From an uncultured Roseburia sp. (GTDB taxonomy: Bacteria; Bacillota; Clostridia; Lachnospirales; Lachnospiraceae), in NCBI GenBank assembly GCA_947088345.1, contig CAMUGE010000024.1, positions 1 through 49,131 of the forward strand: a stretch of 49,131 bases of DNA. The letters are read 5' to 3'. Both the position numbers and the translations under genes were made by a program. Under the pieces are notes generated by a model. It made no database searches, was not told the origin of the DNA, and saw only the letters and a list, made by a program, of their open reading frames with translations. Below are positions 5 to 49,131 of the stretch, in pieces; within the stretch, counting starts at the first letter, position 1; every line of letters starts with the position of its first letter.

Positions 5-46
5 AGCCCTTATAGGGCTAGAGCAAGCCACCGGCTAAGCCGGTGG
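5..46. other. Two tandem hairpins at the left edge; possible terminator or right end of an IS200/IS605-type element
   Basis: Two adjacent perfect inverted repeats are visible: AGCCCT-TAT-AGGGCT (5-19) and CCACCGGC-TAA-GCCGGTGG (28-46). Neither has a T-run, so a simple Rho-independent terminator is not a good fit. GC-rich hairpins with TAA or TTTA loops are typical of the right ends of IS200/IS605 TnpB elements, where they form the 3' part of the reRNA/omega RNA. The transposase gene would lie to the left, outside the window, so this is only a hypothesis. The nearest gene is the chemotaxis gene on the minus strand, which ends at 86. Confidence 0.4.
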
Positions 47-44136: not shown

Positions 44137-44331
44137 ATGGTTAATTATGACCCACTTTGGAATATTATGAATGAACGGGGCGTTACAACGTATAAGTTAA
44201 TCCATTATCATGATATTAATCCCAGAACAATCAATAATTTAAAACATGGGAAAGGAATTACGGTTGATACATTAGAAAAATTATGCAAGGCATTGGAATG
44301 TACGCCCAATGATGTAATAAGATTTATCTGA
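44137..44331 (+). CDS. Small XRE-family helix-turn-helix protein
   Basis: A 64-residue protein that is one Cro/CI-type helix-turn-helix domain: LWNIMNERGVTTYKLIHYHD, INPRTINNLKHGKGI and VDTLEKLCKALECTPNDVI. Proteins of this size bind DNA as dimers and usually regulate their own or a neighbouring promoter. The start follows GAGGTAGGAATT. It is divergent from the 82-residue gene and is the last gene before the region upstream of the large Fn3 protein. The 18-bp palindrome at 44845-44862 is one possible target, without direct evidence. Confidence 0.88.
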   Translation: MVNYDPLWNIMNERGVTTYKLIHYHDINPRTINNLKHGKGITVDTLEKLCKALECTPNDVIRFI

Positions 44332-44407
44332 AATGGACAGGAGAAAACGCGCCTGATCAATCTGTTTCATTTTTAGAGCGAAGTGTTATACAAATATCGT
44401 GGAAGGA

Positions 44408-44436
44408 TGCCAAACATCACACGGAGACGTTTGGCA
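44408..44436. other. Hairpin after the XRE gene
   Basis: Perfect arms TGCCAAAC and GTTTGGCA with a 13-base loop, followed by a T-rich but interrupted stretch. It may be a weak terminator for the XRE gene. Confidence 0.4.
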
Positions 44437-44564
44437 GATTTGCAATTGTTATTATCTTTTACATGTCAGTCAATAAAAATGATTCATTTATCTCTTATAT
44501 CTGCAGCTTTTCTGTAAATTTCATTTTAACCTCCATTCCAAGAACGCATACGTTCCAAAAACCG

Positions 44565-44595
44565 CAGGAGAAACCTGCGAATGCAGCTTCTCCTG
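44565..44595. other. Extended hairpin in the intergenic region
   Basis: CAGGAGAA pairs with TTCTCCTG and, inside that, CTGC pairs with GCAG around a GAAT loop. No T-run follows. Role unknown. Confidence 0.45.
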
Positions 44596-44844
44596 TCAGA
44601 TCAGGACTTATTTGTGACGCTCCCGGCACAAACTGCCGTGTGATCGTTTTATACAGGGAAGTAACGACAGACAAATAACTTTTGGCATTTTATAAATTTA
44701 GTAGTATTAAAAATATAATTGGAAAAACATTATTTGGGTATTTTGCTGAAAAATATGCTAAAAATATTACAAAAATTAGCAGAATAGTATGAGGAAATGA
44801 GTGAGCAAGACAAAAAACAAGTTAAAATAGATAAAAAATCATAA

Positions 44845-44862
44845 AAAAATTGTGCAATTTTT
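44845..44862. promoter_or_regulatory. 18-bp palindrome beside the G tract
   Basis: AAAAATTG-TG-CAATTTTT, perfect 8-bp arms, ending one base before the G run. It could be an operator or a DNA structure that favours slippage. Confidence 0.55.
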
Positions 44863-44863
44863 C

Positions 44864-44876
44864 GGGGGGGGGGGGG
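44864..44876 (+). repeat. 13-base G homopolymer next to the Fn3 gene promoter
   Basis: An uninterrupted run of 13 G, followed by TA and then the -35 box TTGACA. Runs of this length slip readily during replication. No comparable run was noticed elsewhere in the window. The exact length in the cell population cannot be known from one assembled sequence. Confidence 0.9.
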
Positions 44877-44878
44877 TA

Positions 44879-44906
44879 TTGACAAATTCGAAGAAAGGGA
44901 TAAAAT
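44879..44906 (+). promoter_or_regulatory. Predicted promoter of the 1302-residue Fn3 protein
   Basis: Perfect TTGACA (44879-44884), a 16-bp spacer and TAAAAT (44901-44906). It lies about 125 bp before the start codon and directly downstream of the G tract. Confidence 0.7.
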
Positions 44907-44910
44907 AAAT

Positions 44911-44938
44911 CTGTGACTAATCTGTGACTAATCTGTGA
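44911..44938 (+). repeat. 11-bp direct repeats at the predicted transcription start
   Basis: CTGTGACTAAT occurs twice in tandem (44911-44921 and 44922-44932), followed by a partial copy CTGTGA (44933-44938). It starts five bases after the -10 box. Confidence 0.85.
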
Positions 44939-45031
44939 GGAAGTTATGAAAATGGGAGTTGCAGAGTAACAACGACATCGGAATATAGTGTGAGTTCCGG
45001 AGTCTGCAGGAAAAAGGAGGCGTAATTTACA

Positions 45032-48000
45032 ATGAAAAAAGTTGGAATTACAGCGCGTGTCGGAGCGATTATACTTGCCGCAGGCATGATTATGACGGAT
45101 ATTCATCCGGCAATGGCAGCGCAGACTGCAAATAATGGTGCAGTTGTGGAAATGGACGAGCAGGTCAGAGCGTCCGAAAATGGTATCTCAAAAGTCATCG
45201 GATTGAAAGGTCAGCCATATTCCCTTACAATCGTGGCGGATGACGGCAGGACAAAAGCAGATTATACGTATAGCAATCGTACGGATGACAGCGTTGTTTT
45301 AAAGGGACAAAAAGAGACTTTTTTGGACCCTGCTACAGGTCTTTACAAGAACGGAGCCGATTATTATGAATCTGCAGAGAATAAGACAGCTTCTCTGTGC
45401 GAATTATCAGATAAGGTACAGGTGATAGCAGCTGCGCCGCAGGGGGCAACCTGGCAGGAGATCAGTACGAATTATTCTCCCAAAAGAGATGAAAACGGCT
45501 TTTACCAGATGAACGGAAATTCTTATTTCCTGTCGTCTCTTTCCAAACAGAACGATACGACCTATACTTATGATTATTATGTATGGTATATCAGGCCGAA
45601 TGATGCCCTTGAAGTGACGGTGCTGCCGGTTGAGGCGGATGCGTATGCTACATATGGAAAGAAACTTGTACCGTCCGATCCGGTGAATTACAGTTCGGAT
45701 TACGACTGGTATGAGATGCCGAGCGGAAAACGTTATAAGAACATTAATTCACGGGTTGGGACAAACCAAAGAGTTGTATATGCGTATGCAACAAGTGAAA
45801 TTTCTTTTGAAAAAAAAGCAAAGCAGATTTCCTGGCAGTCTCTTTCCAACATTACGGAAATTGACAGCAACGGCAAACGTCTTTACATCGGATACCAGGT
45901 CAAGGCGGATGAACAGGCTGTAAATGATCTGGAGATGATTGGCGAAACGGCACAGGGAACAATCGAAAAATTTACCAGGAATAACAATGTTATCAGTTTA
46001 AAAACATATGCTGCCGGAGAATCCTCTGTTTATCAGGTAAGAGGCGTTTATTATACGGAGACGGAAAAGGCGGTTCCCGTTTATGAGACGGATGATAATG
46101 GCAGACCTGTGATTGATCCGGCTACGAATCAGCCGAAAGTTAAATATTACACAACAGAAACTGTCTATAATATCGTAAAAACAGGCGAATGGTCGGAACC
46201 TTATGCATATGCATGGACGCAGGCGACAAAAACGCTTCCACAGGTGACGGGCGTTTCCGTTAAAGCGACGAGCGCGAAAAATTATGAACTTACATGGGCA
46301 GCCGCAGCGGATGCCTATGGATATGAAATTGAGTACTATAGGAGCACGGCGCCGGTTGCCGACTGGACACCAGTTAAAGACGGTGACTGGACTGAGTTGG
46401 ATTATGTGTCTGCGGCAAAAACGTACTATGAGTTTTCCAGAGACGATCTGAATCTTTTTACAAAAACGGAATATGTGCAGGACGATGTAAACGGTAACTT
46501 ATATAAGACAGAAAAAGGCGAGTATGTAAGCGCCGCTTCTTCGCTCTATACATTCCAGTATGATGCGGAGAATGATGTTTATCTGAGATTTGCAAACGGC
46601 GTGCAGGATGGCACGGTCAGCTATTGGTCGAGCTGGTGGAGCGCCTTTGACGGATCAGCATCCTATGTATCGTATTATGATGACGATGATGATATTGTAT
46701 ACGCAAAAGTAGCGCCGGGCAAGTTTGCCGAAGTGAAGAAACCAGTTACAAATGTATATTTCAGAGTCTGTGCCACGGTGAATTCATCAGCGACAGAGTT
46801 TACAGCCCAGAAAGGCGCATGGTCCGCACCGGTTGAACTGACAGCGGGAATTGCAGAGGAAACACAGATTCTTCCGGATATCACAGGATTAAAAGTGGAA
46901 AAGAACGATGACGGCGGTTTTAATCTGGTATGGAACGCGGTGGATGAAGATACCAAAATCCGTGTGTATTATACAAAGGACCAGGGCGCATTCAATACCC
47001 CGGCCTATACCTATGAACTCGCGTCTCCCTATGCGGAAGTAAATGAAAACGGCAGCATGAAAACATACTACCTGACAGATGCGGATTCGCTGAAAGAGAC
47101 ATTGGGTATTCTGGAGAAAAAAGTTTTTTATCGCGATTATACAGGTGTTACGGAAGTAAGCAGCAGTGATTTTGGGCTGGACGTCAATGAAACCTATTAT
47201 TTCTCAGTTGTTGTCTATGACAGCACAAAGAGAGACGTACAGCATTCGGTTCCGTATACGGCAAATGTATTCGATTCTGCAACGGGCGGCATGAAGCAGA
47301 TTTCTTACCTTTATTATACAGATGTAAAAGAAGCGGCAAAGACGTCGGCAAAGCGCACAATGGTAAAGGCAATTAACCAGCCTTCCACAAAATCGGATAA
47401 GACAAGCATTACACTTACATTTGAAGACAAGACCAGCGCGATTACTGGATACGAAATTTCACGTGCAAACAAGAAAGGCAAATATACAAAGATTGCAACG
47501 ACAAATTCGGCACAGTTTGTAGACCGCGGTCTGGCGCAGTCTACCGTATATAGTTACCGTGCGCGCGCATACAACTACAATACGGTGACAAAAAAGACAT
47601 ATTACAGCGATTATGTTTATTTTCAGGCCGAGACAAGCGTCAACAATTATCTTGATTTAAAAGTAAAAGAGGCAAGTAAAAATTCCGTAAAGTTAAACTG
47701 GACAAAAGTTGCCAATGCAAAATCTTACGAGATTTACAGAACGTCTACAGTTTCTACAGATACGGATGTATCAAAAGTAAGCGGTTACGGTAACGGTATT
47801 ATCTATAGAAATCAAAAGTGGGAACTTGTAAAAACAATTAATAAGGCAAAGACGGTTTCCTATACGGATAAAAAGCTTACATCCGGCGTAACATATATCT
47901 ATAAAGTAGTTGCCAACTACAAGGAAGGCAAAAAGACAAAACAGATTTTCTCGACAGACGGTGTGACATTGAAACTTCAGACGCCGCGAAATCTGACGGC

Positions 48001-48940
48001 TGTCGGCGGCAAAGCGACAGTAAGCGTCACATGGGACGCTGATAAATATGCATCCAAATACGAAGTGCGTTATATCAAATACAGCGCGCAGGGTAAGGCG
48101 GAGACGACGGATTGGGTAAAGGCTTCGACAAAGAAAGCAAGCTACTCCATTAAAAATGTTGCGGACGGCGGCAGCGTAACCGTAAAAGTACGCGCATACG
48201 GCAGCAGCAAATGGACAGATTTTACAGAGGAAGTGCGCGCGTCCGGAAAATATCTTACAGCAGCTGGTTCTGTGACTGCAAAAAATACAACGGTAAAAGA
48301 TGGAAAGGGCGCTTCTCATGATGCCATCCAGGTAAGCTGGAAAAAGGTTTCCGGAGCCGCTTATTATCTGGTATACCGCTCTACAAGCCCGTCTGACGGA
48401 TATAACAATGTATACAAAAACAACTATGGGGCGATTGGAGACTGGGAGCTGATTTCAAAAGAGAGCAACGACGACGAGCGTAACCATTCCGTTCCGTATC
48501 GGGAATACAAAAATGTAAACGGATCTATCGTAGATACGAAAGCAGTAGACCGCGGCAATCTGTATCAGGGTGTGACCTATTACTATTATGTAGCCGCATA
48601 CGCTGCAAACGGTTCCAATATTTCGCTTTGGTTCACAGAGCCGGCAGCAGTCACGTTTAAGGCGACGCCCGGTATTAAGAGCGTGAAAGCAGCGAAAGGC
48701 AAAGTGACGGTAACGATCAATAAGGTGGCAGGAGCCAAATCTTATGAAGTTTACCGCTCTCTGAAAAAGGATAAAGATTATGAGCTGATCGGTACAACAA
48801 AGACTACAAAATATACCGATAAGAAAGTAAAGAAAAATAAAAACTACTACTACAAAGTAGTAGCATGCGGAACAAATGCATTAAAAGCAGATATGAAAAC
48901 GGAACTGTCTGCACCATCCAAAAAAGTAAAGGCAAAATAG
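45032..48940 (+). CDS. Large secreted protein with multiple fibronectin type III-like domains
   Basis: A 1302-residue exported protein. The signal peptide is clear (MKKVGITARVGAIILAAGMI, likely cleaved near HPAMAA at residue 29-30). Much of the rest is beta-rich and resembles repeated Fn3 units, recognisable by VSWK/ELTWAAAADAYGYEIEYYRS-type strands: about residues 405-450, 610-700, 770-860, 865-985, 985-1065, 1070-1200 and 1205-1300. The C-terminal third is Lys- and Tyr-rich and very regular. No LPXTG motif, SLH domain or transmembrane tail is seen, so it may be released or held by charge. Role unknown; an adhesin or matrix protein is a guess. The start follows AGGAGG. The promoter region suggests phase variation. 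Confidence 0.88.
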   Translation: MKKVGITARVGAIILAAGMIMTDIHPAMAAQTANNGAVVEMDEQVRASENGISKVIGLKGQPYSLTIVADDGRTKADYTYSNRTDDSVVLKGQKETFLDPATGLYKNGADYYESAENKTASLCELSDKVQVIAAAPQGATWQEISTNYSPKRDENGFYQMNGNSYFLSSLSKQNDTTYTYDYYVWYIRPNDALEVTVLPVEADAYATYGKKLVPSDPVNYSSDYDWYEMPSGKRYKNINSRVGTNQRVVYAYATSEISFEKKAKQISWQSLSNITEIDSNGKRLYIGYQVKADEQAVNDLEMIGETAQGTIEKFTRNNNVISLKTYAAGESSVYQVRGVYYTETEKAVPVYETDDNGRPVIDPATNQPKVKYYTTETVYNIVKTGEWSEPYAYAWTQATKTLPQVTGVSVKATSAKNYELTWAAAADAYGYEIEYYRSTAPVADWTPVKDGDWTELDYVSAAKTYYEFSRDDLNLFTKTEYVQDDVNGNLYKTEKGEYVSAASSLYTFQYDAENDVYLRFANGVQDGTVSYWSSWWSAFDGSASYVSYYDDDDDIVYAKVAPGKFAEVKKPVTNVYFRVCATVNSSATEFTAQKGAWSAPVELTAGIAEETQILPDITGLKVEKNDDGGFNLVWNAVDEDTKIRVYYTKDQGAFNTPAYTYELASPYAEVNENGSMKTYYLTDADSLKETLGILEKKVFYRDYTGVTEVSSSDFGLDVNETYYFSVVVYDSTKRDVQHSVPYTANVFDSATGGMKQISYLYYTDVKEAAKTSAKRTMVKAINQPSTKSDKTSITLTFEDKTSAITGYEISRANKKGKYTKIATTNSAQFVDRGLAQSTVYSYRARAYNYNTVTKKTYYSDYVYFQAETSVNNYLDLKVKEASKNSVKLNWTKVANAKSYEIYRTSTVSTDTDVSKVSGYGNGIIYRNQKWELVKTINKAKTVSYTDKKLTSGVTYIYKVVANYKEGKKTKQIFSTDGVTLKLQTPRNLTAVGGKATVSVTWDADKYASKYEVRYIKYSAQGKAETTDWVKASTKKASYSIKNVADGGSVTVKVRAYGSSKWTDFTEEVRASGKYLTAAGSVTAKNTTVKDGKGASHDAIQVSWKKVSGAAYYLVYRSTSPSDGYNNVYKNNYGAIGDWELISKESNDDERNHSVPYREYKNVNGSIVDTKAVDRGNLYQGVTYYYYVAAYAANGSNISLWFTEPAAVTFKATPGIKSVKAAKGKVTVTINKVAGAKSYEVYRSLKKDKDYELIGTTKTTKYTDKKVKKNKNYYYKVVACGTNALKADMKTELSAPSKKVKAK

Positions 48941-48958
48941 ACCGTTTTGATACAAAGC

Positions 48959-49013
48959 CGGGCCGGAGGAAATATTTCTTCCGGCCCGCTTCCTATTATA
49001 AATAGGAAGCGGG
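48959..49013 (+). terminator. Two overlapping hairpins after the Fn3 gene
   Basis: Hairpin A pairs CGGGCCGGA (48959-48967) with TCCGGCCCG (48980-48988). Hairpin B pairs CCCGCTTCCTAT (48985-48996) with ATAGGAAGCGGG (49002-49013). They share CCCG at 48985-48988, so both cannot form fully at once. Neither is followed by a T-run. Confidence 0.6.
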
Positions 49014-49056
49014 TGGAAATTCAAAAAAGAAATCAATGAAAAAATACTTTTTTTAG

Positions 49057-49085
49057 TTTTCAAAACGGGAATAGTCTGTTATAAT
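49057..49085 (+). promoter_or_regulatory. Predicted promoter for a gene beyond the right edge
   Basis: TTTTCA (49057-49062), a 17-bp spacer and TATAAT (49080-49085) preceded by TGT (extended -10). Short arms ACGGGA and TCCCGT flank the -10, so an operator is possible. Confidence 0.5.
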
Positions 49086-49131
49086 CCCGTCTTTGACAGT
49101 TAGCAAAAGAAAAAATCGCTGTATCCCTTGT

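Follow-up and report, generated by a model that had tools for sequence, protein, structure and literature searches.

The question raised by this locus is whether a run of 13 consecutive G residues, lying just in front of a promoter, could act as a length-variable switch for the gene behind it. The window, that is, the whole stretch of DNA analysed here, is the complete contig C24 (49,131 bases) of the genome G000, a 3.05-Mb draft in 80 contigs that is 90.5% complete. By sequence count the tract, presumed to be the length-variable element, occupies 44864..44876 on the plus strand. The dinucleotide TA, a gap of 2 nt, separates it from the -35 box TTGACA (44879..44884, plus strand; sequence inspection, pattern count and promoter scan), and a 16-nt spacer leads to the -10 box TAAAAT (44901..44906, plus strand; sequence inspection and promoter scan). 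This order had been described in an earlier note, and each element was recovered at its position. On the other side a single C (44863) joins the tract to an AT-rich palindrome, AAAAATTG-TG-CAATTTTT, at 44845..44862 (no strand assigned), which is a candidate UP-like element or operator. It had been called an 18-bp palindrome; the 18 bp are there, but only the 8-bp arms are symmetrical and the central TG is not. Transcription is predicted to start near 44913; counted from there, the tract would span about -49 to -37 and the palindrome, farther out, about -68 to -51. Three 11-bp direct repeats of the AATCTGTGACT type, the third diverging at its end, lie at this predicted start (44908..44940, plus strand); they are a possible operator or leader element, and the sister species discussed below also has three.

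The combination TTGACA-16..18-TA[AT]AAT occurs once on both strands of the window, and that single occurrence is the promoter at 44879-44906. A general promoter scan of 44300-45100 gave it the top score, 11/12. The scan returned 5 promoter-like sites as against 3.3 in shuffles, so the number of sites carries little information. The promoter stands 126 nt before the open reading frame of a 1302-residue protein (45032..48940, plus strand), which begins with ATG and has GGAGG upstream. Pfam, sequence search and a crude signal rule describe an apparently exported protein with fn3 (residues 787-851) and GH85_C (Fn3-like, residues 1219-1288) domains and an N-terminus resembling a signal peptide, and its earlier description as a giant secreted Fn3 protein is a fair one. 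The sole solved relative found by sequence at E 0.01, the Fn3-like 3mpc, covers residues 1214-1283; NCBIfam has no family for the protein and no wall anchor was seen by eye at its C-terminus. It is probably a large exported protein of the Fn3 type, adhesive or glycan-binding by inference. Further upstream, 44137..44331 (plus strand) encodes a 64-residue Cro/C1-type HTH protein (HTH_26, PF13443, 2.9e-16). The sister species has its gene in the corresponding position, 179/195 nucleotides being identical, and the protein is a possible regulator. The region 44300-45300 had no match in a phage collection.

The tract is well beyond what composition would give. It is the only G/C run of at least 8 in the 49,131 bases. 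A first-order Markov model trained on the composition of the window itself predicts 0.0006 G/C runs of at least 13 per window. Scaled to 3.05 Mb it predicts 0.04 runs of at least 13, 0.61 of at least 11 and 9.9 of at least 9, and the genome has 2, 3 and 3 respectively. The 23 runs of at least 7 in this genome comprise sixteen of 7, four of 8 and one each of 11, 13 and 15; lengths 9 and 10 are absent. The excess over the model is thus restricted to long runs, the runs of 9 and 10 falling below it. The 13-G tract is a pure repeat far above chance length, as expected of a contingency locus.

The tract was compared with that of a sister species (G032, locus L032). The ortholog there is 87% identical in amino acid sequence, and the gene is a single open frame in both species. 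The sister has a pure tract at the same place, of 23 G as compared to 13 in the window; this is one cross-species comparison with one genome per species, and the length of 23 in a metagenome-assembled genome may be inexact. The palindrome with its adjoining C is identical at 19/19 positions, whereas the flank at 44701-44838 agrees at only 88/138. On the other side of the tract the core promoter is identical at 23/28 positions with a 16-nt spacer in both, the sister boxes being TTGACG (-35) and TATAAT (-10). The sister tract is followed by TTTCAA where the window has TA, which makes the gap to the -35 box 6 nt instead of 2 nt. Thus the purity and position of the tract are kept between the two species and its length is not. 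The earlier claim of a tract against the -35 box is borne out, and the box is conserved. Length that differs among relatives between conserved flanks, as seen here (13 and 23) and at a second tract of the genome (15 and 9), is another property of contingency loci. Anatomically, at 2 nt from a conserved -35 box, a change in length would be able to affect expression.

More distant homologs were located in five further genomes (G042, G015, G026, G052 and G047). The promoter comparison took in G015 and G042; the contigs of G026 and G047 hold no DNA upstream of the homolog. The proteins of G015 and G042 are 52% and 55% identical over the best segment and their genes have the promoters TTGACA-17-TATAAT and TTGACA-17-TATGAT, respectively, with no G/C run longer than 5 in the 11 kb covered at these loci. 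Since these homologs have a TTGACA promoter and no tract, the promoter probably predates the tract, unless there were two separate losses of the latter. It was seen by eye that G015 carries AAAAAATGTGCGATT upstream of its -35 box, similar to the left part of the palindrome. The palindrome followed by CG, with at most one mismatch, was found in 2/62 genomes of the genus, presumably Roseburia; the two are G000 and G032, with one copy each (the reversed-pattern control gave 3/62), and a repeated module of palindrome plus tract is thus rejected.

The two other long tracts of this genome were examined in the same way. The second, of 15 G near 75965-75979 of contig C7 (L160; gene on the minus strand), has a TATAAT box on one side and on the other the start codon of a secreted LRR_5 (BspA-type LRR) protein, so that it probably lies in the leader of this gene. 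The corresponding run in the sister is 9 G long, and the 20 or so nt on either side of it differ at one position each; the sister has a further run of 14 G (L164) inside the same LRR_5 gene. Inverted arms, ATACGC and GCGTAT, were noted by eye around the 15-G tract. The third tract, 11 G at C40:14420-14430 (L161), separates two parts, in different frames, of a glycosyltransferase-like gene; our guess that the gene is of a surface-sugar type comes from its sequence, and Pfam gave no family for the downstream part. The sister contigs C71 and C103 end on opposite sides of this place. A tract that interrupted the assembly would have this result, but such a break is no more than indirect evidence.

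A control was made with the 20 runs of 7-8 G in the genome, of which 16 could be aligned to the sister and 4 had no counterpart. None of the 16 kept a run of at least 7 in the sister (the longest was 6), mostly through substitutions, as compared to 2/2 alignable long tracts that stayed pure (Fisher p 0.0065, with small numbers and both sets picked for length in one genome). It should be noted that all 16 aligned short runs sit in a stop-free frame of at least 145 residues and both long tracts compared are non-coding. Most of the short runs are therefore probably coding, where third-position changes are possible, and the control is confounded. It can be taken as a hint, not more.

From the tract, the promoter-like sequence, the conservation on both sides, the divergence in length and the sibling tracts, a scheme can be put forward. 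We consider it fairly probable that the tract is a simple-sequence contingency element which tunes the strength of the promoter of the 1302-residue protein gene. On this view the 13-G run separates an AT-rich palindromic element from a vegetative (sigma-A type) promoter downstream that is otherwise strong and presumably the one in use. Replication slippage, presumed to occur within the species as the length difference between the two species suggests, would change the number of G. As the -35 box, the 16-nt spacer and the -10 box are intact, a change in length would leave the promoter unbroken. It would move and rotate the palindrome, with anything bound to it, be it polymerase or a regulator, relative to RNA polymerase. 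It could also alter the local shape of the DNA, and promoter output would be graded up or down. Cells within one population would then export differing amounts of the 1302-residue protein. The earlier interpretation of the tract as a length-variable switch is thus plausible and partly supported.

For one part of that interpretation, the shifting of AT-rich upstream DNA against the -35 box, sabA of Helicobacter pylori is a close precedent in the literature (PMC4081817). According to the available text of that report, a T-tract adjoins the -35 box of sabA, AT-rich UP-like DNA lies at -95 to -50, and changes in tract length alter polymerase binding. With T13, A13 or C13 as the tract, the AT-rich DNA upstream of it is protected by polymerase (PMC4081817). 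At five further H. pylori loci, of which four are named as outer-membrane protein genes, a tract is reported to precede the -35 box by under 20 nt; the A-tract of hp_0350, 3 nt from its -35 box, changed activity, and the tract of pyrG, 30 nt away, had no effect (PMC4081817). The present locus resembles sabA, a surface adhesin gene, in that a homopolymer stands shortly before a -35 box that is intact, with AT-rich DNA beyond it and an unchanged -35/-10 spacing. A rheostat of the sabA type calls for a tract no more than 20 nt before such a box; the gap is 2 nt here and 6 nt in the sister with the 16-nt spacer in both. On the far side of the tract the AT-rich palindrome, which polymerase alpha subunits would contact in a sabA-type rheostat, is present and conserved in the sister. 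By analogy with sabA, this palindrome (about -68 to -51) would be what the tract acts together with. On the other hand, sabA belongs to another phylum, its tract is of T and that here of G, and its output was measured. Scrambling of the AT-rich elements at sabA is reported to raise output, which means that such elements can inhibit (PMC4081817), and thus the sign of a length effect here is not predictable.

Other systems share some of these features. Poly-G or poly-C at surface-protein promoters is known from Neisseria porA and opc and from Treponema tprL, where output is reported to depend on length, although no clear correlation between length and expression was reported for tprL in vivo (PMC7864442). 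The porA tract lies between the -35 and -10 boxes, that of opc covers the -35 box and that of tprL spans part of the -10 box, whereas here the tract is upstream of an intact -35 box (PMC7864442). A spacer tract of the porA type is excluded for the 44879-44906 promoter, because the tract ends 2 nt before TTGACA and touches neither the -35 box, the spacer nor the -10 box. Among Gram-positive bacteria, the length of a homopolymer beside a surface-protein gene is reported to alter transcript levels at Spy1336/R28 - Spy1337 of Streptococcus pyogenes; unlike here, the tract is of T, has R28 on one side and the gene of a regulator on the other, and affects the transcripts of both (PMC7098570). In the gut commensal Bifidobacterium breve, poly-G slippage is described in the surface-structure genes for sortase-pilus, but within the coding region, where it acts on/off by frame, and not at a promoter as here (PMC9187656).

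The idea that the tract belongs to the leader or the reading frame of the 1302-residue protein gene was rejected, since the conserved promoter comes after it and the gene is an uninterrupted frame in either species. In gut bacteria, phase variation by promoter change is reportedly also brought about by invertible promoters, as in the work of Jiang et al. 2019. These switch by DNA inversion between inverted repeats. No inverted pair of at least 10 nt was found in 44700-45040 (the 8-bp palindrome arms are under that length), and an invertible promoter was rejected for this range.

It could be argued that the tract varies strongly in length without consequence for expression, growing and shrinking as a by-product of mutation next to a promoter that works equally well at any length. 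G runs followed by T are reported as hot spots for run-extending T-to-G changes in other bacteria (PMC12344412), and 35/57 of the tracts kept in the genus survey below are followed by T. Such lengths are very rare, and in this genome they are found at a promoter, in a leader and in a frame-split gene; the palindrome beyond the tract is identical in the sister, and short runs were lost there, a control confounded by probable coding location. On balance a neutral tract is rather unlikely. That the tract is an artefact of assembly or sequencing is hardly credible, although both genomes are drafts and G runs at contig ends elsewhere look artefactual (46 G at the end of L165). The tract is inside a 49-kb contig and not at its end. 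A separately assembled sister genome carries a tract at the same place with an identical flank, which makes an assembly error, the possibility left open earlier, unlikely.

Two more readings take the palindrome or the tract for something else. The palindrome could be the operator of a dedicated regulator, for example the HTH_26 protein, the tract then tuning the action of this regulator and not polymerase contact. The dyad symmetry, the 19/19 identity and the conservation of the gene at 44137-44331 in the sister speak for this, and the tprE/G/J promoters of Treponema, which have a poly-G tract, are also bound by a CRP homolog (PMC7864442). Against this, the palindrome is equally a plain A-tract/T-tract element, and the HTH gene ends about 500 bp upstream. 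Self-regulators usually bind the promoter of their own gene, but the palindrome occurs once per genome and hence is absent from that of the HTH gene. We regard the operator as quite improbable. The tract could also be the spacer of a separate upstream promoter, TTGTGC-N8-G13-TATTGA, similar to porA and to the sites found across the order; by eye, the layout of TTG, T-run, C, G-run and TAT is that of several of these sites. TTGTGC and TATTGA each match the consensus at 3/6 positions by eye, and the sister has no -10-like box after its tract (TTTCAATTGACG). With weak hexamers that are not conserved, this promoter was rejected as highly improbable.

It was found that runs of at least 10 G occur at 71 places in 26/62 genomes of the genus, of which 57 were kept after dropping duplicates and those less than 100 nt from the end of a stretch. 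Some G runs at contig ends, such as the 46 G closing L165, look like sequencing artefacts, and a stretch of 17 G running straight into 12 C (L178), some 70 nt inside the end of G045:C7, is probably an assembly artefact. Four of the 57 lie exactly between TTGAC[AG] and TA[AC]AAT. These spacer-placed tracts precede a sortase (L120), two related exported proteins (L122 and L128, the latter with no Pfam family) and a LytR_cpsA_psr protein (L142). In the 569,420 strand-bases of loci L120-L185, all 4 occurrences of TTGAC[AG]-N20-21-TA[ACT]AAT are at tracts, a count that is descriptive as the pattern was defined after the four sites had been seen. Pfam was run on 20 hand-chosen ORFs at 17 tract loci, and 3 had no family. 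Type I restriction specificity domains flank the tract at L121 on both sides. Other loci gave glycosyltransferases (L141, L173), a sugar transferase (L147), a hexapeptide transferase (L127), an epimerase-type polysaccharide-biosynthesis protein (L140), a GDSL lipase (L138), DUF6273 (L144), DUF1919 with an MptE-like protein below the cut-off (L163) and an NAD_synthase type (L132). Several of these we take to be classic contingency-gene types. The single-contig genome G035 has both the 13-G promoter spacer before the sortase gene (L120) and the 10-G tract between restriction specificity domains (L121). In G042, paralogous genes for exported-looking proteins (L153, L154) have tracts of 13 and 11 G about 10 nt before the ATG. 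T-rich DNA tends to precede the 57 tracts, and T follows in 35/57 and then A in 30/57. This T/A may come from promoter boxes or from mutation bias at borders between G runs and T.

Across the order, the spacer-type pattern TTGACA-N3-12-G8+-N0-8-TA[AT]AAT was found at 29 sites (L219-L247) in 26/392 sampled genomes and 16/173 genera, and its reversed form in 0/392; none of the 3 Roseburia-genus genomes in this sample had it. The tract abuts the -10 box in 24/29 sites. The spacers range from 14 to 20, with one of 27, and thus fall on both sides of the usual 17. Spacers before a LytTR regulator in two genomes are 20 (L226) and 18 (L227), those before an ABC transporter 20 (L235) and 19 (L236), and those of the related loci L222 and L224 are 14 in both. 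An ORF begins within 250 nt at 25/29 sites; Pfam, run on 23 of these 25, gave no family at E 0.001 for 12. By the crude rule 16/25 of the ORFs are export-like as compared to 10/28 controls, and with a Fisher p of 0.056 no enrichment is claimed. The spacer-type sites are possibly an undescribed class of switchable promoters, to judge by their sequence. The strict pattern with the tract upstream of the -35 box was found in 2/392 genomes including the window, and its reversed form in none; the sister lies outside this sample and its TTGACG would miss the pattern. The second case (G394) stands before a glutathione peroxidase gene (PF00255), which is no surface gene, and this together with the rarity of the type counts against a general rule.

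No description of poly-G phase variation in Roseburia or Lachnospiraceae was found in titles and abstracts of open-licence PMC papers, among the matches listed, and the available portions of PMC2831843 and PMC11868660 do not mention Roseburia. Whether Lachnospirales, Roseburia included, have a widespread and so far undescribed poly-G promoter contingency system is to us an evenly balanced proposition. One class, like porA, would have the tract within the spacer and directly before the -10 box; the other, like sabA and the window, would have it next to the -35 box. Together they would govern exported proteins, a sortase, regulators and signalling proteins. If so, gut Clostridia would diversify their surface by homopolymer slippage and not by DNA inversion alone. 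The locus itself belongs to a known phenomenon; what merits attention is the group of bacteria in which it occurs, and the collection of poly-G promoters across the order. If the tract does switch, differences between single cells and between strains in what is presented to host and phages would get a simple, countable genetic cause in a common butyrate-producing genus. Since long-read metagenomes record how long such a tract is, samples that already exist would allow the idea to be tested at once. Further test cases are plentiful at the spacer-type sites of 26/392 order genomes, and for either position of the tract there are precedents in the literature.

A minor observation concerns the end of the contig. 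The stretch 48856-49131 contains CCCGTCTTTGACAGTTAG, and 11 sites of the genome have CCCGTCTTTGACAGTTAG or its partner sequence, which suggests that they are ends of a repeated insertion element. Ahead of CCCGTCTTTGACAGTTAG, 230 bp also occur unchanged in the region where contig C12 starts.
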